Assembly (NCBI RefSeq): GCF_001653335.1
Contig: NZ_CP015079.1
Location: 2,418,001 to 2,482,000 of the forward strand
Source: Nocardioides dokdonensis FR1436
GTDB lineage: Bacteria > Actinomycetota > Actinomycetes > Propionibacteriales > Nocardioidaceae
Direction: 5' to 3'
DNA: 64,000 nt
This document shows, one piece after another, positions 26,726-36,402 of the stretch. The notes beneath the pieces are model-generated. The model searched no databases and was not told the origin of the DNA. It was given only the letters and a program-made list of their open reading frames with translations. Made by a program: the position numbers and the translations under genes. Every line of letters begins with the position of its first letter. The stretch's first letter is position 1.

Positions 26726-26746
26726 GACCACGCGGTGCAGCAGGAG

Positions 26747-26820
26747 CGCCCCCGGCAGGACTCGAACCTGCGACCGGCGGATTAGAAGGCCGCTGCTCTA
26801 TCCAGCTGAGCTACGGGGGC
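26747..26820 (-). tRNA. tRNA-Arg (anticodon UCU)
   Basis: The minus strand reads GCCCCCGTAGCTCAGCTGG at the 5' end; the acceptor pairs GCCCCCG with CGGGGGC, discriminator G. Anticodon loop CTTCTAA gives TCT, reading AGA, a rare codon in this GC-rich genome. CCA is not encoded. Confidence 0.95.
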
Positions 26821-27131
26821 GGGGGACCGGAAGCCACAGTCGGAAGCACAGGGACGACCCCGGTGCAGTTCGACGGCATGCTGCCGACCCGGACGCCAGT
26901 ATGCCGTAGCGGGTCATCGCGATGCTCCGGGGTGGAGTCGGCTCCCACCGGGCTGAGGTCCACGGACCGGACTCTCCCACCCGATCTCCGGCTGCTGCGT
27001 GCTGCTCGGGTCCGGCGTGACCGTGGTGGTCGGGGCCGGGGTGCTGCTGTGCGCGCACGCGTCGCCGGACCGTGCGCCGGGGCGTCCGGCTGGAAGCCGC
27101 CGAGGCGGGTAAAGCCGGTTACGCTGCGGGC
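26821..27131. other. 311-bp stretch between tRNA-Arg and the receiver gene
   Basis: I see no convincing gene. A possible 37-codon frame starts at GTG 26999 and ends TAA 27110-27112; it would encode a short hydrophobic segment (VTVVVGAGVLLCAHAS) followed by basic residues, but lacks a good ribosome binding site. TACGCT (27120-27125) is the likely -10 for the receiver gene. Confidence 0.5.
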
Positions 27132-27560
27132 GTGGACGACTCGGCGGGACCTTCTTCCGCCGTCACGCCTCCCGATCAGAGCGGCGTACGCCGGCTGCGG
27201 CTCCTGGTGGTCGACGACCAGGAGGACATCCGCGAGATCATGGTCCGGATGGTCGCGCGCCTGGGACACGAGGCGGTCGAGGCCGAGGACGGCCAGCACG
27301 CCGTGGAGGCGCTCTCGGCGGACCGGTTCGACGTGATGCTGCTGGACCTCTCGATGCCGCGGATGACCGGCGAGGAGGTCGTCCGGTGGCTCCGCGACCA
27401 TCCAGAGGTCGCCCCGGACCTGCGCATCGTCGTGGTCAGCGCCTGGGCCGGGGACAAGCGTCCGGCGCTGCACGAGCTGGGTGTGGACGCCGTCCTGCCC
27501 AAGCCGTTCCGCAAGCAGCAGCTCGTCGACCTGCTCGACGAGCTGTCGACCAGGACCTGA
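27132..27560 (+). CDS. Stand-alone response regulator receiver protein
   Basis: The 142-residue protein is a receiver domain without an output domain. Acidic pocket Asp28-Asp29 (LVVDDQED), phosphorylation site Asp72 (MLLDLSMP), Lys near the C-terminus (VLPKPFR) and Ser/Thr switch (VVVSAW) are all present, so it should be phosphorylatable. It could act as a phosphorelay shuttle or by binding a partner; the kinase gene 1.4 kb downstream is the nearest candidate. GTG start supported by TACGCT six bases upstream. Confidence 0.88.
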   Translation: MDDSAGPSSAVTPPDQSGVRRLRLLVVDDQEDIREIMVRMVARLGHEAVEAEDGQHAVEALSADRFDVMLLDLSMPRMTGEEVVRWLRDHPEVAPDLRIVVVSAWAGDKRPALHELGVDAVLPKPFRKQQLVDLLDELSTRT

Positions 27561-27704
27561 GCCTCGCCTCCCGGCTGCACGAATTGCTGGTCGTGGGGTC
27601 GGCCCGGTCCCTAGGATGAGCCCAGCCGTGCCGGGGAGGGTCTGGTCGGCTCGTCGCTGGGTAGGTGCCCGGGGACGTCGGTCTCGTCGAGGGAGGAACA
27701 TTCC

Positions 27705-27779
27705 ATGCTCAAGTTGATCCAGAAGCGCCGTGTCGCTCGCCAGCTCAGCGCCGTCTACGGATGGCGTCCGGGCCGCTGA
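27705..27779 (+). CDS. Putative 24-residue basic peptide
   Basis: ATG at 27705 opens a 25-codon frame encoding MLKLIQKRRVARQLSAVYGW plus RPGR. The Shine-Dalgarno GGGAGGA (27691-27697) seven bases upstream is among the best in the window, and a TAGGAT hexamer (27612-27617) could be the promoter. The peptide has seven Arg/Lys and no acidic residue and may form an amphipathic helix. It precedes the P450 gene by 31 bases. It may be a leader peptide or a small membrane-binding protein; no homologue is known to me. Confidence 0.55.
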   Translation: MLKLIQKRRVARQLSAVYGWRPGR

Positions 27780-27810
27780 CGGTGGCCCGACCATCGAGGA
27801 GCGGACCCGG

Positions 27811-28965
27811 ATGACGGGTCCGTTCCCCAGTCTCGGCACCGAGGCGCCTTCCGGGCGTCTCGGTGCCGTTCTACGTGCGGTGGGTGCCGACGAGCCGGTC
27901 GCGCTGGGGCGGACCGGGCCGTGGCTGGTCACGAGCCCCGCCGACTCCCGGCGCGTGCTCACCGACACCGCGTGCTTCGACTTCCCCCTCGACGTGAGTC
28001 GCCGTGCGGTGCGCCGGGGCGCGGGCCGTGCTGCCGCGTCCGGCCCGCCCACCCCGCACGAGACCTTCGCAGCGTTGGGCCCCGCTGCTGTGGCGGCAGG
28101 CCGCCGGGTCGTCGCCGAGGAGCTCCGGAGCCGCTGCGGCGACCCGGGGACCGTCGTCGAGGCGATGGACCTGCTGCGTGCCCCGGTGGCGCGCTCCACG
28201 GCCGCGGCGGCGCTGCCGGACCTCGACCCCACGGCCCGCGACGAGATCGCCGACCTCGTGCTGTCGTGGGTCGACGCCCTGGGCCCCGTCATCGCCCACC
28301 GTCGCAACCCCGCGCGGTTCTCCCGCGTACGGCGCCGCGAGTCCGTGGCACGTCGACGTCTGGAGCAGCGGCTCACGGACGCCGGCGAGCAGCACCCCGC
28401 CAGGATCGCGACCTACCTGGCCGCCGGCACGCAGGTGCCGATCGCGGCCGGGGCGTGGCTGCTGGTCGCGCTGGCGGCCCATCCCGGCGTGGCCACCGAC
28501 CTGCGTGCGGGGGAGACCGAACCCCTCGCCGCCGTCTGGGAGACCCTGCGGCTCACGCCGCCGACGTGGGTGACCGGGCGCGTGAGCGCGGCGCCGGTGG
28601 AGCTGGGCAGCACCCGGTTGCCGGCCCAGGCAGTGACCCTCGTGAGTCCGCTGCTCCTCGGGCGTCGCGCCGAGCTCGTCCCGGGGCCGGAGCACGGTGA
28701 GGCCGATCGCGGCGTCTTCAGCCCGCGCCGCTGGACGGGTGTCGCGATGAGACCGGGGGCCTGGCTGCCGTTCGGTGCCGGGCCGCACGCGTGCCCGGGG
28801 CGTAACCTGGGCCTGGCACAGCTTCTCGAAGTGGTCGCCTGGGCGGGTCGGCACGACCTGGAGCCCGGCGCGGTCGCCCGGGTGGACCAGAGCCGCGGCA
28901 TCTTCCCCGCCCCTTCCACACTGGTCGTGCACCCCAGGCACCCCGACAGGAGCAGCAGTGACTGA
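27811..28965 (+). CDS. Cytochrome P450 with atypical I-helix
   Basis: From ATG 27811 (GAGGAG nine bases upstream) the protein is 384 residues, slightly short for a bacterial P450. The heme loop FGAGPHACPGRNLG places the axial thiolate at Cys328, and WETLRL gives the ExxR pair Glu244/Arg247. In the I-helix, the usual AGxE/DT is replaced by A205-G-T-Q-V-P210, so the acid-alcohol pair needed for normal O2 activation is missing. Substrate unknown. The sensor kinase GTG overlaps its last codons by 8 nt, so the two are translationally coupled. GTG 27730 is an alternative but poorly supported start. Confidence 0.85.
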   Translation: MTGPFPSLGTEAPSGRLGAVLRAVGADEPVALGRTGPWLVTSPADSRRVLTDTACFDFPLDVSRRAVRRGAGRAAASGPPTPHETFAALGPAAVAAGRRVVAEELRSRCGDPGTVVEAMDLLRAPVARSTAAAALPDLDPTARDEIADLVLSWVDALGPVIAHRRNPARFSRVRRRESVARRRLEQRLTDAGEQHPARIATYLAAGTQVPIAAGAWLLVALAAHPGVATDLRAGETEPLAAVWETLRLTPPTWVTGRVSAAPVELGSTRLPAQAVTLVSPLLLGRRAELVPGPEHGEADRGVFSPRRWTGVAMRPGAWLPFGAGPHACPGRNLGLAQLLEVVAWAGRHDLEPGAVARVDQSRGIFPAPSTLVVHPRHPDRSSSD

Positions 28966-30298
28966 GCCCGGCCCCCTCCAGGTCCTCGGGGACGAGGCCC
29001 AGCCCACGGCCGCGGCCACGCGGCTCGCGCAGGCGATCCTGCAGGGCGCGCTCAGTGGCGCGGAGGCGGTCGAGGCCATCGCTGACATGTTCCTGCCGCA
29101 CCCGCGCGTCGATGCCGTGACGGTGGCGCTGACGACGTACGAGCCGGAGAGCAAGGACGGGTGGATCGAGCTGGGGCAGCGCGCGTGGCTGCGCGAGTGG
29201 GTCAGCCCCGGGAGCCTCGTGTCGGTGGTGCCGGACGGCGACGCCGGGCCCGAGGCCGCGCTGACCATGCCGTGGATGTCGCCGCGCACCCGCGAGGGCG
29301 TCGTCGTCATCACCGACGTCGAGCTGCTGCCCCCGGAGGCGGCGCAGGACCGCCGCGAGATGCTCGCCTGCGGGGTCCGCAGCCTGGTCAGCTCCTCCCA
29401 GGTCAACGATGGCGTCATGTTCGGCAGCATCTCGCTGCTGAGCGCGACGGGCGGTCCGTGGCCGGACGGCGACATCGCCGACCTCACCCTGCTCGCGGCA
29501 GCCCTGCGGTCCCGGCTCCAGGTCCTCGCGACCCGGCACTCGCTGGCGGACGCGATCGCGCGCGGCGACCAGGCCAGCGCCGTCCAGCAGCAGTTCTTCG
29601 CCGCCACCGGCCACGAGCTGCGCACCCCGATCAGCGCGATCCTCGGCTACGCCGAGGTGCTGCAGTCCGACGCCGAGGACCTGGCCGGGGTCACCGATCC
29701 CGAGCAGCTGGCGCGCTTCGTGGCCGGCGTGCACCGCGACACCGGGATCATCGTCGGCGCCGGCGAGCAGCTGCTCGCGATCGTGGAGGAGCTGCTGAGC
29801 ACCGCCCGGGTCCTCGGGGACGCGCCCCGCGAGCCGGTGGTGGTCGCCGAGGCGGTCCAGGACGTCGTGCACTGGGTGCGCACCCCGGCGGCCACGGCGC
29901 AGGTGGACGTGACCGCGTCGGTGCCCGCGGACCTCGCGGTGCTGGGCACGCCGGCGGGCGTGCGCCAGGTGCTGACCAACCTCGTCGGCAACGCGGTGGC
30001 GCACAACCGTGCCGGCGGCCGGGTCACCGTCTCGGCCACCCCGACGCAGGGCGAGGCCGGTGAGCCCCGGATCCGGATCAGCGTCAAGGACACCGGGCCC
30101 GGGCTGACCCCCCGTCAGCTCAGCCAGGTCTTCGAGCCCTTCGTGCGCTTCGCCGAGCCGGGCGTGCGGGGGACCGGGCTCGGTCTCTCCCTGTCCCGTG
30201 CCGTCGCCGAGCGCGACGGCGGGCTGCTCGGCGTCGAGTCGCGCTCGGGCGAGGGATCGACGTTCTGGTTGGACCTGCCGGCCGCCACCGGGGGCTGA
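28958..30298 (+). CDS. Sensor histidine kinase coupled to the P450
   Basis: The 446-residue protein has no membrane helix; an N-terminal region of about 190 residues (GAF-like) is followed by HisKA with His219 (ATGHELRTPISAILGY) and a HATPase with NLVGNAVAHN, VKDTGPGL, VFEPFVRF and GTGLGLSLS. AGGAG (28948-28952) lies five bases before the GTG, inside the P450 3' end. It could phosphorylate the lone receiver at 27.1 kb (inference). A P450-kinase pair suggests the kinase reports on the P450 substrate or on redox state. Confidence 0.9.
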   Translation: MTEPGPLQVLGDEAQPTAAATRLAQAILQGALSGAEAVEAIADMFLPHPRVDAVTVALTTYEPESKDGWIELGQRAWLREWVSPGSLVSVVPDGDAGPEAALTMPWMSPRTREGVVVITDVELLPPEAAQDRREMLACGVRSLVSSSQVNDGVMFGSISLLSATGGPWPDGDIADLTLLAAALRSRLQVLATRHSLADAIARGDQASAVQQQFFAATGHELRTPISAILGYAEVLQSDAEDLAGVTDPEQLARFVAGVHRDTGIIVGAGEQLLAIVEELLSTARVLGDAPREPVVVAEAVQDVVHWVRTPAATAQVDVTASVPADLAVLGTPAGVRQVLTNLVGNAVAHNRAGGRVTVSATPTQGEAGEPRIRISVKDTGPGLTPRQLSQVFEPFVRFAEPGVRGTGLGLSLSRAVAERDGGLLGVESRSGEGSTFWLDLPAATGG

Positions 30299-30332
30299 GC
30301 CGGCCTCGGAGGGAGCGCCCAGGGGGAGCGGG

Positions 30333-31754
30333 TCAGAGCCGGGCGCCCATCCATGCCTCGACGTCGTCGGCGCTGCGGGGCAGCGCCGCGGAGAGGTTGC
30401 GGTGGCCGTCGCGGGTGACCACGAGGTCGTCCTCGATGCGGATCCCGATGCCGCGCAGCTCCGCAGGGACCAGCAGGTCGTCCTCCTGGAAGTACAGGCC
30501 CGGCTCGACGGTCAGCACCATCCCCTCGGCCAGGGTGCCCTTCGCGTAGGACTCGGGGGCCGCGGCGCCGCAGTCGTGCACGTCCATGCCGAGCATGTGG
30601 CTGGTGCCGTGCAGCGTCCAGCGGGCGTAGACCTTGCTCTCGGGGTCGAGCGCCTGCTCGGCCGGCACCGGCAGCAGACCCATGCCCTCGAGGCCGTGGG
30701 CCAGCACCGTCATCGACGCGGCGTGCACGTCGGCGAAGGGGGTGCCGGGGCGCACCGCCTGGAAGCCGGCCTCCTGGGAGGCGAGGACGAGGTCGTACAG
30801 CTCGCGCTGCAGCGCCGTGTAGCTGCCGTCGACGGGCAGCGTGCGGGTCACGTCGGCGGTGTACAGGTTGTGACCCTCCACCCCCATGTCGAGCAGCACC
30901 AGCTCCCCGGGCGTGATCGCACCGGAGTTCTCGATCCAGTGCAGCGTCGTGGCGTGCTTGCCGCCGCCGACGATCGAGTCGTAGCCGATGTCGTTGCCCA
31001 TCGCGCGGGCCCGGCGGAAGAACGTGCCCTCGATCCAGCGCTCGCCGTACTTGAGCACGTTGGCCCAGTCCGACACGGAGTCCTCGAAGCCCATCGTGGT
31101 GGCGTCGCAGGCGGCCTGCAGCTCGCCGACCTCCCAGTCGTCCTTGACCAGGCGCATCTCGGACACGACCCGCGCCAGCTCGCTGTCGAGGGCCGCGTCG
31201 GCGCTGACGAGACGGTCGACGTGGGCGGAGACCCCGCGGTGCACGCGGGTCTTGTGCTGGACGCCGGACAGGTCGTCGGCGAGCCGGTCGACGTGGCGGA
31301 CCCCGATGCCGAGCGAGGACGAGAGCTCGTGCGCCGAGGGGCGGCGCCCGGCCCACAGCTCGCCGTACTGGCGGTCCCGGAAGAATTCGTCGGTCTCCCG
31401 CGAGGAGCGGGGGCGCGCGTAGAGCACGGCCTCGCCGTCGGTCAGCACCAGCACGGCGTCGGAGGTGAGGTTGCCGGTGAAGTAGGTGTGGGCGGTGTCG
31501 CTGCGGAACCGGTAGTCGGTGTCGTTGGCGCGCACCTTGTAGGTGCCGGCGGGCAGCACCAGCCGCTCGCCGGGGAAGGCCTCGCTCAGGCGCGCCCGGC
31601 GCTGCGCGGCCAGGTCGGCGACGGGGTGGCGGGGCAGGTCGAGCTCGCGGTCGCCCCAGCCCGAGCGCATGAACGTGGAGTACGCCTCCGGCACGGCGGG
31701 GTCGTGCGACTCGGTCTTGGGCTCGGTCGGCGCGGGGACGCTCTGCTCGCTCAT
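30333..31754 (-). CDS. Xaa-Pro aminopeptidase (M24B)
   Basis: The 473-residue enzyme removes N-terminal residues before proline. Dinuclear metal ligands of the pita-bread fold are visible: Asp in VLLDMGVEG, Asp in YTADVTRTLP, His in GTSHMLGMDVHD, Glu in MVLTVEPGLYF and Glu in IGIRIEDDLVV. The N-terminal domain (TYKVRANDTDYRFRSDTAHTYFTG) matches PepP. TACCAT on the minus strand (31761-31766) lies six bases before the ATG, suggesting leaderless transcription. Convergent with the kinase gene, 34 bp gap. Confidence 0.92.
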   Translation of the reverse strand: MSEQSVPAPTEPKTESHDPAVPEAYSTFMRSGWGDRELDLPRHPVADLAAQRRARLSEAFPGERLVLPAGTYKVRANDTDYRFRSDTAHTYFTGNLTSDAVLVLTDGEAVLYARPRSSRETDEFFRDRQYGELWAGRRPSAHELSSSLGIGVRHVDRLADDLSGVQHKTRVHRGVSAHVDRLVSADAALDSELARVVSEMRLVKDDWEVGELQAACDATTMGFEDSVSDWANVLKYGERWIEGTFFRRARAMGNDIGYDSIVGGGKHATTLHWIENSGAITPGELVLLDMGVEGHNLYTADVTRTLPVDGSYTALQRELYDLVLASQEAGFQAVRPGTPFADVHAASMTVLAHGLEGMGLLPVPAEQALDPESKVYARWTLHGTSHMLGMDVHDCGAAAPESYAKGTLAEGMVLTVEPGLYFQEDDLLVPAELRGIGIRIEDDLVVTRDGHRNLSAALPRSADDVEAWMGARL

Positions 31755-31823: not shown

Positions 31824-32945
31824 ATGGTGCCGACGCGTCGCGACAACGTCGCCTTCACGGTCGTGGTCACCGCGCTCGTGGTGCTGGGAGCGTTGCCGAT
31901 CCTGCTGGTCATCGCGTTGTCGGGCGGGCCCGACTCGTTGGTCCTGGCCACCGTGCTCGCAGCCCTGCCGGTGGGCCCCCTGGTCGCCTGCTACCTGTGG
32001 CTGGACCGCTACGAGCCCGAGCCACGCTCCCTGCTCCTGCTGGGCCTGCTGTGGGGCGGCTTCGTGGCCACGGCGGCCGCGCTGCTGGTGCAGGGCGTCG
32101 GCGGCCTCGTCGTCGGGGTCACCGAGGCGGCCAGCCTGGCGGTCGTCGCGCCGGTGACCGAGGAGTTCTTCAAGGGCGCGTTCCTGGTCCTGCTGCTGTG
32201 GTGGCGCCGCGCCGAGCTCGACGGCGTCCTCGACGGCATCGTCTACGCCGGCATGGTCGGCATCGGCTTCGCCTTCGTCGAGAACATCCTCTACCTCGCC
32301 GCGGCCTACAACGGGACCGACGGGATGGGCCCCGGCGGCACCGAGGCCCTGACCACGACCTTCGTGCTGCGCTGCCTCTTCAGCCCCTTCGCCCACCCCT
32401 TCTTCACCACGTTCATCGGCATCGGGGTCGGCTTGGCCGTCGGTTCCCGCTCCACCGCGATGCGGGTGCTCGCCCCGCTGGGCGGCTACGTCCTCGCCGT
32501 GCTCGCGCACGGGCTCTGGAACGGGTCGACCATCTACGGCTTCGGCGGCTTCGTCGTCGTCTACGTCGTGCTGATGGCTCCGGCGCTGGTGGCCACGGCG
32601 GTGCTGGCGGTGTGGGCGCGCAGGTCCGAGCGCCGGATGCTGGCCGCCGCCCTCGGCGACGCGGCCCAGCGCGGGCTGCTGCCGGCCACCGACATCGGCT
32701 GGGTCGTCGACCTCGGCGCCCGCCGGAGGGCCCGCAGCCACGCCCGACGGCTCGGTGGCACCGCCGGTGAACGGGCCATGATCGACTACCAGCAGGCCGT
32801 GATCGAGCTCGGGTTCCTGCACCACCGCTACCTCCGCGGCACCCCTCCGCCAGACTTCGCACTCCGAGGACAGGACTACGTCGCCCGCATCCGCGCCGTT
32901 CGTCCTTCCATCGCTTTTCCCGGACAGGTGGTTCCAACCCGATGA
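31824..32945 (+). CDS. PrsW-family intramembrane metalloprotease
   Basis: The 373-residue protein has about eight membrane helices. Catalytic PrsW motifs are present: VTEEFFKG (EExxK), FAFVENILY, HPFFTTFIG and AHGLWNGS. In Bacillus PrsW cleaves an anti-sigma factor; CAAX-like proteases also mature prenylated or other membrane proteins. No sigma/anti-sigma gene is nearby. The last 110 residues are cytoplasmic and basic. TAGGGT (31811-31816) lies seven bases before the ATG. The stop overlaps the GTPase start (ATGA). Confidence 0.9.
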   Translation: MVPTRRDNVAFTVVVTALVVLGALPILLVIALSGGPDSLVLATVLAALPVGPLVACYLWLDRYEPEPRSLLLLGLLWGGFVATAAALLVQGVGGLVVGVTEAASLAVVAPVTEEFFKGAFLVLLLWWRRAELDGVLDGIVYAGMVGIGFAFVENILYLAAAYNGTDGMGPGGTEALTTTFVLRCLFSPFAHPFFTTFIGIGVGLAVGSRSTAMRVLAPLGGYVLAVLAHGLWNGSTIYGFGGFVVVYVVLMAPALVATAVLAVWARRSERRMLAAALGDAAQRGLLPATDIGWVVDLGARRRARSHARRLGGTAGERAMIDYQQAVIELGFLHHRYLRGTPPPDFALRGQDYVARIRAVRPSIAFPGQVVPTR

Positions 32946-34687
32946 CAGCCCGCCCCGACGCCAGTCCCAGCGGAGCCGAGGACGCCCAGATGCTCACCGC
33001 GCTGGTCCGCCTGCGCGGCGCGCTGCAGGGCGCCACCCTCCCTCTGGACCTGCCCGGCGTCGACGAGGTGCGCGCCTCGCACGACGAGATGGTCGCGCAG
33101 CTGGAGGACTACGTCATCCCGCGCGTGATGACCATCGACGCCCCGCTGCTCGCGGTCGTCGGCGGCTCGACCGGCGCCGGCAAGTCCACCCTGGTCAACT
33201 CGCTCGTCGGGCGCCGCGTCACCGAGCCCGGGGTGCTGCGCCCCACCACCCGCTCGCCGGTGCTGGTGCACCACCCCGACGACGGCCACTGGTTCGGCCA
33301 GGACCGGCTCCTGCCCGACCTGCGCCGCGTCGAGCACACCACCAACGACCCGGACGCCCTGCAGCTGGTGGCCTCCGAGACCGTCCCCCAGGGACTGGCC
33401 ATCCTGGACGCCCCCGACGTCGACTCCGTCGAGGAGCGCAACCGCACCCTGGCCGCCCAGCTGCTGGCCGCCGCCGACCTGTGGCTCTTCGTCACCTCCG
33501 CCGCGCGGTACGCCGACCAGGTGCCGTGGGGCTTCCTCAAGCAGGCCGCCGACCGCTCGACCGCGGTCGCGGTGGTCCTCGACCGCACCGCCCCCGAGGC
33601 GGTGCAGACCGTCTCCACCCACCTGGCCCGGATGCTGGCCTCGCGCGGTCTCAAGGACTCCCCGCTCTTCGTCGTCCACGAGGGCCCGGTCGACGCCCAG
33701 GGCCTGCTGCCGGCAGCGCACGTCCAGGACGTGCGCGGCTGGCTGGACTCGCTGGCCCACGACGCCGGCGCCCGCGCCGCGGTGGTCAAGCAGACCCTCG
33801 ACGGCGCGATCCGCAGCATCACCCACCACGTGCACCCGGTCGCCGATGCCGCGGCCGTGCAGCTCGAGACGGCCGCCACCCTGCGCGACGAGGCGGAGCG
33901 GGCCTACGAGCGCGCCGCCGCCGATGCCGTCAAGGCGACCGCGGACGGCACCCTGCTGCGCGGGGAGGTGCTGGCCCGCTGGCAGGAGTTCGTCGGCACC
34001 GGTGAGCTGCTGAAGTCGCTCGAGAACCGGGTCGGCTGGCTGCGCGACCGCGTCGTGAACGCGGTCAAGGGCAAGCCGCAGCAGGCCGAGCGGGTCACCG
34101 TCGCCGTCGAGTCGGGGCTGGAGCTGCTGATCCTGGAGCACGCCGAGCAGGCCGCCGAGCGTGCCGAGGCCGCCTGGCAGCAGCACGCGGCCGGGGTGGG
34201 CCTGCTCGCGCAGGCCGGGCCCGACATCGGTCGCGCCTCGCGCGACCTGCGTCGTCGTGCCGAGCGCGCGGTGCGCGACTGGCAGGGCGACGTCCTCGAG
34301 ATGGTCAAGGCCGAGGGCGCCGACAAGCGCTCGACCGCACGCTTCCTGGCCTTCGGGGTCAACGGCCTCTCGGTGGCCCTGATGGTCGTGGTCTTCACCC
34401 ACACCGCGGGCCTGACCGGGGCCGAGGCGGGCATCGCGGGCGGATCGGCGGCCCTGGGCCAGAAGCTGCTGGAGGCGGTCTTCGGCGACCAGGCCGTGCG
34501 CGGCCTCGCCGACCGGGCCCGCACGATGCTCGAGGAGCGCATCACCGGCCTCTTCGACACCGAGCGCGCCCGCTACACGTCCCTGGTCGACGGGCTCGGC
34601 CTCGTGCCCGGCTCCGCGGAGCAGCTGCGGCAGGCGGCGCGCCGCGTCGACGACGTCCGCTTCGCGGCCGCGCCCCGGCAGGGCTGA
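32942..34687 (+). CDS. Dynamin-like/YfjP-type membrane GTPase, first of pair
   Basis: The 581-residue protein has a P-loop GGSTGAGKS (residues 74-82), a switch/G3 region LAILDAPDVDSVEERN, and a long helical C-terminal part that ends with one or two hydrophobic segments (FLAFGVNGLSVALMVVVF and GGSAALGQ) before a basic tail. Such proteins remodel or guard membranes, e.g. dynamin-like proteins; G4 is not obvious. ATG overlaps the PrsW stop, so PrsW and the GTPase are made together. A second GTPase gene follows after 74 bases. Confidence 0.85.
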   Translation: MTARPDASPSGAEDAQMLTALVRLRGALQGATLPLDLPGVDEVRASHDEMVAQLEDYVIPRVMTIDAPLLAVVGGSTGAGKSTLVNSLVGRRVTEPGVLRPTTRSPVLVHHPDDGHWFGQDRLLPDLRRVEHTTNDPDALQLVASETVPQGLAILDAPDVDSVEERNRTLAAQLLAAADLWLFVTSAARYADQVPWGFLKQAADRSTAVAVVLDRTAPEAVQTVSTHLARMLASRGLKDSPLFVVHEGPVDAQGLLPAAHVQDVRGWLDSLAHDAGARAAVVKQTLDGAIRSITHHVHPVADAAAVQLETAATLRDEAERAYERAAADAVKATADGTLLRGEVLARWQEFVGTGELLKSLENRVGWLRDRVVNAVKGKPQQAERVTVAVESGLELLILEHAEQAAERAEAAWQQHAAGVGLLAQAGPDIGRASRDLRRRAERAVRDWQGDVLEMVKAEGADKRSTARFLAFGVNGLSVALMVVVFTHTAGLTGAEAGIAGGSAALGQKLLEAVFGDQAVRGLADRARTMLEERITGLFDTERARYTSLVDGLGLVPGSAEQLRQAARRVDDVRFAAAPRQG

Positions 34688-34761: not shown

Positions 34762-36402
34762 ATGACGTCCTTGCTGGACGGGGCCAAGAAGCTGGTCACC
34801 CGTGGCACCGACACCGGCGCTCGCATCGAGGGGCTGGCCACCGCCGTCGACGCGGCGCGCGGACGGCTCGACGACGACCTCGTCGACGCCGCCGAGTCCG
34901 TCGTCGACCGCGCCACCAGCCGCCTGCGGCTCTCCGCGTCCCACACCGTGGTCGCGATCGCCGGCGCGACCGGCTCCGGGAAGTCCTCCACCTTCAACGC
35001 GCTGACCGGCCTGGAGCTCTCCGCCGTCGGCGTACGCCGCCCGACCACGTCGTGGGCCACGGCGTGCGTCTGGGGCAGCGACGGTGCCGGTGAGCTCCTG
35101 GACTGGCTCGGCATCCCGCCGCGGCACCAGACCACCCGCGACTCGATGCTCGACACCCGTCGGGAGTCCCAGGCGCTCGAGGGCGTCGTGCTCCTCGACC
35201 TGCCCGACCACGACTCGACCGAGGTCTCGCACCACCTCGAGGTCGACCGTCTCGTGGCGCTCGCCGACATGCTCGTGTGGGTCCTCGACCCCCAGAAGTA
35301 CGCCGACGCGGCCATCCACGACCGCTACCTCGCGCCCTTGAAGACCCACGAGGGCGTCATGGTCGTGGTGCTGAACCACATCGACACGGTGGCCCCGGAC
35401 GGCCGGGAGGCGATGGTCGCCGACGTGCGCCGCCTGCTCCAGGCCGACGGTCTCGGGCAGGTGCCGGTGATCGCCGTCAGCGCCCGGGAGGGCATCGGCA
35501 TCGACGCGCTGCGTCGCGAGATCGAGTCGCGGGTCAGCGCCAAGAAGATGACCGCCGCCCGGATCGAGGCCGACGTGCGCGCCGTGGCGGGACGCCTGCA
35601 GGAGGCCGGCGGCGACGCCGCGACCCGCGCACTGTCCGACCAGCGGGTGCGTGCGATGCAGGACGCCTTCGCGGAGGCCGCCGGGGTCCCCACCGTCGTG
35701 GAGGCCGTCGAGCGTTCCACCCGCCTGCGCGCCGGTCGGGCCACCGGGTGGCCCCTGGTCTCGTGGGCCAGCCGGCTGCGTCCCGACCCGCTGAAGAAGC
35801 TCCAGCTCGACCTCGGCTCCTCCACCCGGGCCCTGCGTGGCACGCACGCGGCCGTGCCCGAGACCACGTCGGTGCAGCGCGCCCGCGTCGACTCCGAGGT
35901 CCGGGCGCTGACCGACGAGGCGACCCGCGGGCTCGGTCGGCCCTGGGCCGACGCCGTGCGCCGGGCCTCGGTCGACCGGCTGCCCGAGGTCGGCGACCGC
36001 CTCGACGAGGCCCTGCGGGGCGTGGACCTCCAGGTCGCGCGCATCCCGGTGTGGGCCGGGATCGTCCGGGTGCTGCAGTGGGTCCTGATCGTCACCGCGC
36101 TCGTGGGTGCGGCCTGGACCGCGGCCGCCGGGCTGTCCGGCACCCTCGCCAGCACCCCGAAGGTCGGCGGCGTCGCGCTGCCCCTGGTGATGCTGCTCGG
36201 CGGGGTGGGGCTGGGCATCCTGCTGGCCCTGGTCTGCCGTGGGCTGGTGGCCGGGACGGCGGCCCGGCGCGCCGGGAGCGCCGACTCGCGGCTGCGCGCC
36301 GCGGTCGACAGCGTCGCCCACGACCTCGTCGTCAGCCCCGTGGAGGCCGAGCTCGCGGCCTACACCCGCGCTCGCGCCGGGTTGTCGAAGGCCCTGGCCT
36401 AG
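34762..36402 (+). CDS. Membrane-anchored GTPase (YfjP/Era-like), second of pair
   Basis: The 546-residue protein has P-loop GATGSGKSS (68-76), a G3 block LLDLPDHDSTEV, and LNHIDTV at the G4 position (His in place of the usual Lys of NKxD), then VIAVSAREGIGIDALR resembling G5. The C-terminal half is helical and contains two membrane helices (VLQWVLIVTALVGAAW and LPLVMLLGGVGLGILLALV). It probably works with the GTPase encoded just upstream. ATG preceded by a GTGGGAG stretch. ssb follows downstream. Confidence 0.85.
   Translation: MTSLLDGAKKLVTRGTDTGARIEGLATAVDAARGRLDDDLVDAAESVVDRATSRLRLSASHTVVAIAGATGSGKSSTFNALTGLELSAVGVRRPTTSWATACVWGSDGAGELLDWLGIPPRHQTTRDSMLDTRRESQALEGVVLLDLPDHDSTEVSHHLEVDRLVALADMLVWVLDPQKYADAAIHDRYLAPLKTHEGVMVVVLNHIDTVAPDGREAMVADVRRLLQADGLGQVPVIAVSAREGIGIDALRREIESRVSAKKMTAARIEADVRAVAGRLQEAGGDAATRALSDQRVRAMQDAFAEAAGVPTVVEAVERSTRLRAGRATGWPLVSWASRLRPDPLKKLQLDLGSSTRALRGTHAAVPETTSVQRARVDSEVRALTDEATRGLGRPWADAVRRASVDRLPEVGDRLDEALRGVDLQVARIPVWAGIVRVLQWVLIVTALVGAAWTAAAGLSGTLASTPKVGGVALPLVMLLGGVGLGILLALVCRGLVAGTAARRAGSADSRLRAAVDSVAHDLVVSPVEAELAAYTRARAGLSKALA

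Follow-up and report, generated by a model that had tools for sequence, protein, structure and literature searches.

A conserved Nocardioides gene cassette for a predicted P450-crosslinked peptide with its own two-component system

In a window of 64,000 nucleotides from Nocardioides dokdonensis FR1436 (contig NZ_CP015079.1, positions 2,418,001 to 2,482,000, the only contig of a 4.38 Mb genome), four consecutive genes of the plus strand encode a lone receiver, a 24-amino-acid peptide, a cytochrome P450 (P450) and a histidine kinase. This gene order is a conserved cassette. As judged from sequence comparison, the short open reading frame (ORF) very likely encodes the precursor of a ribosomally synthesized and post-translationally modified peptide (RiPP) and the P450 its crosslinking enzyme, the tiny peptide probably being joined Tyr to Trp. 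The fuller reading, a RiPP cassette peculiar to the genus that brings along a two-component system whose kinase senses the product, was given about an even chance.

The receiver, a response regulator without output domain, lies at 27132–27560 (Pfam Response_reg, E 3.9e-23). The gene of the predicted precursor, MLKLIQKRRVARQLSAVYGWRPGR, occupies 27705–27779, with the ribosome binding site AGGGAGG (27690–27696) 9–15 nt upstream of its ATG. The P450 gene (27811–28965; Pfam p450, E 1.9e-12) begins 31 nt behind the stop of the ORF and has its own ribosome binding site, GAGGAG, at 27796–27801. The gene of the soluble histidine kinase (28958–30298; HATPase_c, E 2.1e-23; HisKA, E 4e-11) starts behind an AGGAG with a GTG placed inside the last P450 codons, giving an 8-nt overlap (GTGACTGA). 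An earlier note, made from this DNA alone, had described four such genes in this order on one strand at 27132–30298, with a tiny basic ORF behind a good ribosome binding site and a kinase start in the 3' end of the P450 gene, and the Pfam matches and coordinates bore out each of these points.

Full-length orthologs of the P450 (50–58% identity) were found in 26 of the 97 other genomes of the genus that were searched, separated by a large gap from the next matches (E 1e-82 versus 1e-17). All 26 carried a small ORF before and a kinase behind the P450 gene, and 25 carried the receiver in front; in the remaining relative the locus is cut by a contig end. The same was observed in 57 further loci (37 named and 20 other, many from the same genomes), where the ORF and the kinase were present in 57 and the receiver in 56, the sole exception being the same contig end. 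The earlier note had asked for the conservation of the order in relatives, which was thus found within Nocardioides; the family-wide conservation that it had envisaged was not, the P450 being found in one genus of the 26 that the family sample covered. The 84 loci (the window, the 26, the 37 and the 20) were reduced to 55 non-redundant ones by means of an identical 600-nt stretch of the P450 gene. Among these, an overlap of 4 nt (37 loci) or 8 nt (two loci) joined the P450 and kinase genes in 39 of 55. The coupling that the note had remarked on is therefore kept in most loci, but a P450 beside a kinase is not without precedent, being known from the conservons of Streptomyces (PMC13343842, PMC8510531).

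The strongest constraint was found in the short ORF. An ORF of 24–31 codons ending in Y-x-W precedes the P450 gene in all 27 first loci, the window included, behind a purine-rich site wherever upstream sequence exists. Y-x-W was also present in 57 of the 57 further loci, which were searched with ATG starts only and the pattern [YFWH].[YFWH], so that Phe, Trp and His were permitted at both places. In the non-redundant count, which required Y.W, it was present in 55 of 55 loci and 52 distinct peptides, again of 24–31 residues. Eight kinds of residue occurred at x and nine kinds before the Tyr, while the Trp was followed by Arg in 54 loci and by Arg-Pro (YxWRP) in 48. In an alignment of 29 peptides from 27 loci (the three copies of Nocardioides currus included, a shorter start in L054 left out), Tyr18 and Trp20 were the only invariant positions, and Arg9 and Arg21 were kept in at least 90%. 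The segment N-terminal of the Tyr is basic in all 55 loci, with a net charge of +2 to +6. As a control, Y.W was found in the last 14 residues of none of the 597 flanking ATG ORFs of 20–34 codons. The stop of the ORF lies 20–69 nt from the aligned P450 region in most loci.

Additionally, N. currus (G021) carries tandem precursor copies with 4-nt overlaps, three of them on the contig of the P450 and more on a second contig, which ends directly behind the receiver. This array (L055:12-276 and L161:1-260) is distributed across the ends of two contigs, and one copy contains an N; the assembly apparently stops within the precursor repeat, so the copy number counted here is provisional. Multiple precursors have been reported for other RiPPs (PMC13417212). 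The conservation of Y-x-W, the free variation elsewhere and the tandem overlapping copies together make the ORF look like a RiPP precursor, and the cassette shows two of the features by which P450-crosslinked RiPPs are broadly recognized, namely a co-conserved short ORF beside a P450 and a C-terminal aromatic pair at fixed spacing. The earlier note had read the cluster as a small-molecule signalling module. The conserved unit and a sensor confined to P450 carriers agree with that reading, which had missed the precursor family; since the 24-codon ORF belongs to a family with invariant Y-x-W, the meaning of the cluster changes, the peptide being the most likely substrate of the P450.

The P450 itself is unusual in its I-helix. 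The sequence LAAGxQVP (LAAGTQVP in the window) and the ExxR motif were kept in all 55 P450s, and the CPG loop with the heme Cys was recognized by pattern in 52 and by eye in the other three. The usual acid-alcohol positions of the I-helix hold Gln-Val in 55 of 55, where the aligned CYP175A1 has Glu and Thr; such an I-helix would suit radical coupling better than oxygen insertion. The AlphaFold model shows a P450 fold (pLDDT, the predicted local distance difference test score, 85.6). The enzyme evolves fast, with a mean corrected distance of 0.63 compared with 0.08 for RpoB. The P450 alignment covered 26 of 27 sequences, L049 being left out. In five loci (L045, L050, L053, L061 and L063) the stretch searched between precursor and conserved P450 region has no ATG, GTG or TTG in the P450 frame; one listed start candidate is a CTG that shares bases with the precursor stop (CTGA), and the P450 start in these loci is possibly unusual or later.

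The kinase consists of a cassette-specific N-terminal sensor followed by HisKA and HATPase_c. The N-terminal domain is GAF-like and stayed below the Pfam GAF cut-off (17.8 versus 22.4 bits), and the predicted model is confident at about residues 11–190. No clear membrane-helix-like stretch was found in the kinase, whose maximum hydropathy is 1.31, and 25 of the 27 kinases remained below 1.6. Residues H219, N345, D378, G380, G405, G407 and G409 of the catalytic core were invariant in 27 kinases (18 of them in the kinase alignment), and the phospho-accepting D72 and K124 were invariant in the 25 aligned receivers, out of 26; L059 was dropped because of a stop codon in an upstream extension. The residues are therefore those of a two-component system, with an intact phospho-His kinase core and a receiver with its phospho-Asp. 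The Pfam scan detected no DNA-binding or output domain in the receiver.

With the first 200 kinase residues as the query, the sensor was detected in 30 of 118 genomes of the genus, all of them P450 carriers, in a search whose matches were listed in full and whose non-matching genomes in part, the inclusion of all 98 genomes searched for the P450 not being established. The 30 include all 27 carriers from the P450 ortholog search and three others (G166, G229 and G271) in which the P450 was known from the family-level search. In the class sample, the same seven of 296 genomes, from one genus of 114, carried both the sensor and the P450. No genome listed with the sensor lacked the P450, which fits a signalling system linked to a molecule that the cassette makes. 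Two P450 carriers hold a further kinase gene: in G071 (L056) a second kinase follows the first in tandem, and in G088 (L160) an orphan paralog with 38% identity lies about 38 kb from the cassette, with no cassette parts within the stretch examined around it.

The cassette is restricted to one genus as far as the samples extend. Matches to the P450 were obtained in 39 of 245 genomes and one of 26 genera of the family (E 1e-40), in 21 of 196 genomes and one of 29 genera of the order (E 1e-25), and in seven of 296 genomes and one of 114 genera of the class (E 1e-25), in samples that overlap; at these thresholds no match was obtained outside Nocardioides. Among the 37 named loci, 36 were labelled Nocardioides and one came from an unclassified Actinomycetota metagenome-assembled genome. 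In 25 genomes (G093, with only a fragment of RpoB, and G021, with no receiver on the P450 contig, were omitted), the distances of the P450, the kinase and the receiver correlated with those of RpoB (r 0.80–0.92) and with one another beyond RpoB (partial r 0.48, 0.67 and 0.48; permutation p about 0.0005). Since the distances follow RpoB and each other, the history fits a mainly vertical descent with many losses, and horizontal transfer of the unit is not claimed. The cassette occupies at least two chromosomal settings: flanking ORFs were common to up to 36 of the 55 loci, while the setting of the window, with an aminopeptidase P, was found in a smaller group. No ORF of the flanks, which span about 5 kb and in some loci stop at a contig end, was common to every locus, and therefore no further cassette gene is proposed. 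Moreover, no exporter or peptidase belonging to the cassette was found among the flanking ORFs or the neighbours scanned.

The working model is as follows, and we infer its crosslink, binding, signalling direction and output from the sequences. The 24-residue peptide, by its strong constraint, would be a precursor with a basic leader, MLKLIQKRRVARQLSAV, and a Y-G-W-R-P-G-R end. The P450 would bind it and oxidatively join Tyr18 to Trp20 (i, i+2), and the product would be a three-residue cyclophane, linked C-C or C-N, with two hydrogens less. Leader trimming, if any, may be left to general peptidases, as no peptidase or exporter was found in the cassette. The kinase, whose synthesis is presumably tied to that of the P450 through coupled translation, may read the crosslinked peptide, or the crosslinked versus the uncrosslinked form, inside the cell, which is the least certain step. 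It would then set the phosphorylation of the adjoining receiver, and since the receiver has no DNA-binding domain, it would work via a protein partner.

Sensing of the crosslinked product by the kinase, which is based on co-occurrence, was rated slightly short of an even chance, and the more specific proposal, that the crosslinked Tyr-x-Trp peptide stays intracellular as a dedicated ligand or bound aromatic cofactor of the soluble kinase, appears rather doubtful. The same RiPP cassette could be made with a kinase and receiver that only regulate its production or answer another cue, the peptide acting elsewhere, for example extracellularly; the evidence on precursor and P450 also fits this, and the candidate promoter before the receiver means that the pair may be co-transcribed with the cassette. 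Regulators beside biosynthetic genes are common. This explanation is possible, although less than probable: the receiver lacks a DNA-binding domain, no exporter or peptidase was found to accompany the cassette, and a sensor found only in P450 genomes is needless for an all-purpose regulator. Several further results weigh against a dedicated peptide-sensing cassette. The kinase could sense something else, and two of the 27 kinases reach hydropathy values of 1.6 and 1.92. Shared descent can partly explain the correlated distances. Unlike the kinase sensor, the receiver has homologs with at least 52% identity in three of the 98 genomes (G018, G036 and G004) for which the ortholog search gave no P450, only two of which are clear because the G004 receiver lies at a contig end in a genome that is 85% complete. 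The precursor peptides vary freely outside Tyr and Trp, with 480 non-synonymous and 319 synonymous codon changes in 89 pairs, and thus give no general indication of purifying selection. In addition, neither sequence nor fold comparison singled out the P450 as special kin of known RiPP P450s. The match to the NCBIfam ApyO model (76 bits, far below the cut-off) was rejected as evidence after a control in which nine of nine other P450 ORFs tested from the same genome matched this model; it does not discriminate because two of these ordinary P450s scored higher, with 137 and 144 bits. Fold comparison was likewise undiscriminating: P450Blt, whose I-helix residues are given in PMC10929621, was ninth among close Foldseek scores and absent from the 50 VIA matches listed.

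Two other explanations dispense with the crosslink. The P450 might mainly be an accessory of the kinase, as proposed for the conservon protein CvnE, with the 24-residue peptide as an uncrosslinked small protein ligand or bridge. Conservon P450s do stand beside kinases without extracytoplasmic sensors, a contact between CvnE11 and CvnA11 has been predicted (PMC13343842), and the fixed gene order and coupled translation would agree with such a role. It is nevertheless improbable, given that the Pfam scan found no CvnB roadblock, CvnC or small GTPase CvnD among the nine neighbouring ORFs of the window, that the heme-binding loop is retained in 55 of 55, and that a strictly conserved Tyr and Trp at i and i+2, encoded next to a heme enzyme, are what known crosslinking substrates show. 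Alternatively, the P450 might act on an unrelated small molecule, the ORF being an attenuator-type upstream ORF or having some other role. Only a short distance separates the ORF from the P450 gene behind it, and in some relatives a hairpin precedes the ORF. An upstream ORF would leave unexplained why Tyr and Trp are fixed while the neighbouring residues vary, why one species has tandem precursor copies and why the part before the Tyr is basic in all loci; moreover, the consensus scan detected no terminator-like site in the region of the window, and this last explanation was regarded as highly improbable.

P450s that join Tyr(i) to Trp(i+2) do exist, through C3-C5 as in pseudosporamide or through C6-N1 (PMC11002830). 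The cassette resembles these RiPPs in having a precursor beside a P450 and Tyr and Trp two residues apart. It differs from them in the Arg and mostly Pro after the Trp, in a P450 group with LAAGxQVP found in one genus and in the dedicated kinase and lone receiver, the crosslink here being a predicted one. The biarylitides share a P450 that links an aromatic residue i to a second one at i+2, a small cluster and multi-copy precursor genes, and some have Trp at the second position (MKYLW and MKYIW); their precursors are pentapeptides, sought in a range of 5–8 residues (PMC13417212), whereas those of the cassette have 24–31, and the family was therefore not assigned to the biarylitides. The atropopeptides are alike in their two-gene core of a P450 and a precursor of 10–40 residues and in the characterized cases without a dedicated protease, but they are defined by a KSLK leader and an xWxxxx core (PMC11450843), and KSLK was present in none of the 55 leaders. 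In the aminopyruvatide system, the P450 ApyO crosslinks Y-L-Y and two YLW precursors occur; ApyO accepts Tyr/Trp variants and needs Arg or Lys before the motif, while the system differs from the cassette in its other maturation enzymes and its 66-residue precursor (PMC13192836). Finally, in conservons a kinase is associated with a P450 (CvnE) and, in other cases, with a GAF protein (CvnF) (PMC13343842, PMC8510531), whereas the cassette includes a receiver and a precursor peptide, and its kinase has an N-terminal domain of its own. With the conservon components named above missing from the scanned neighbours, the cassette was not assigned to the conservons.

P450-crosslinked RiPPs, Tyr-x-Trp links and P450s beside kinases in conservons are thus already known. 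Among the papers listed by the literature searches, whose reach excluded most subscription papers, none appeared to describe a P450-RiPP cassette that carries a kinase and a lone receiver of its own, and a word search of the accessible text of PMC13417212 and PMC11450843 gave no mention of Nocardioides, histidine kinase or two-component. The precursor and P450 family may already be present in P450-RiPP mining work as an uncharacterized group. As far as these searches reach, the cassette is a real, conserved and undescribed P450-RiPP variant with a built-in two-component system.

If the crosslinked peptide does remain inside the cell as the dedicated ligand of the kinase, it would be a gene-encoded peptide messenger matured by oxidation, its maker enzyme and its sensor being produced by coupled translation. 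Such a messenger would add a new class to the known bacterial signals and assign a role to a P450-RiPP. The present data hint that crosslinked peptides can serve as signals. In harmless soil bacteria, the kinase sensor and receiver within the cassette make this hypothesis directly testable, and 52 distinct natural peptides are at hand for pairing with their cognate sensors. The cassette also offers a P450 group, of predicted activity, for Tyr-x-Trp macrocyclization, with natural peptides that hold eight different middle residues.

Regarding transcription, a TANNNT hexamer was present 4–8 nt upstream of a possible receiver start in 36 of 54 loci, which suggests a leaderless transcript beginning with the receiver. 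In the window the candidate -10 hexamer of this leaderless-type promoter is TACGCT (27120–27125, plus strand), 6 nt from the receiver start; a -35-like TTG stretch was seen, by eye only, in many of the loci with TANNNT. The transcript start near 27612–27617 that the earlier note had anticipated found no support, since the consensus scan of 26850–30450 detected no promoter-like site of the sigma-70 type and the aligned relatives have no clear common -10 by eye. A promoter for the peptide at that place was therefore rejected. Hairpins of 7–9 pairs were found about 25–30 nt upstream of the precursor ATG in L047, L056, L059, L062, L064, L125 and L126. Their stems differ in sequence among relatives, and the best stem at this place in the window has four pairs; the hairpin may serve in processing or control.

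Lone receiver paralogs (L162–L168) were 52–59% identical to the cassette receiver, and L164 ends right behind the receiver. No cassette parts were found within the stretch examined near the paralogs of G018, G036, G046, G019, G053 and G093; in G004 the contig ends directly behind the receiver, so the downstream side is not covered. The partners of these paralogs could reveal the output of the receiver. In the window, the Pfam scan of nine neighbouring ORFs identified ordinary neighbours, with an adenosine deaminase and proteins of the PIG-L and MauE families upstream of the cassette, where a tRNA-Arg gene (26746–26820, minus strand) is also located, and the aminopeptidase P downstream on the opposite strand. 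Further on, two large GTPases adjoin each other at 32942–34687 and 34762–36402; the first has a dynamin match above the cut-off, and the two are possibly a bacterial dynamin pair.

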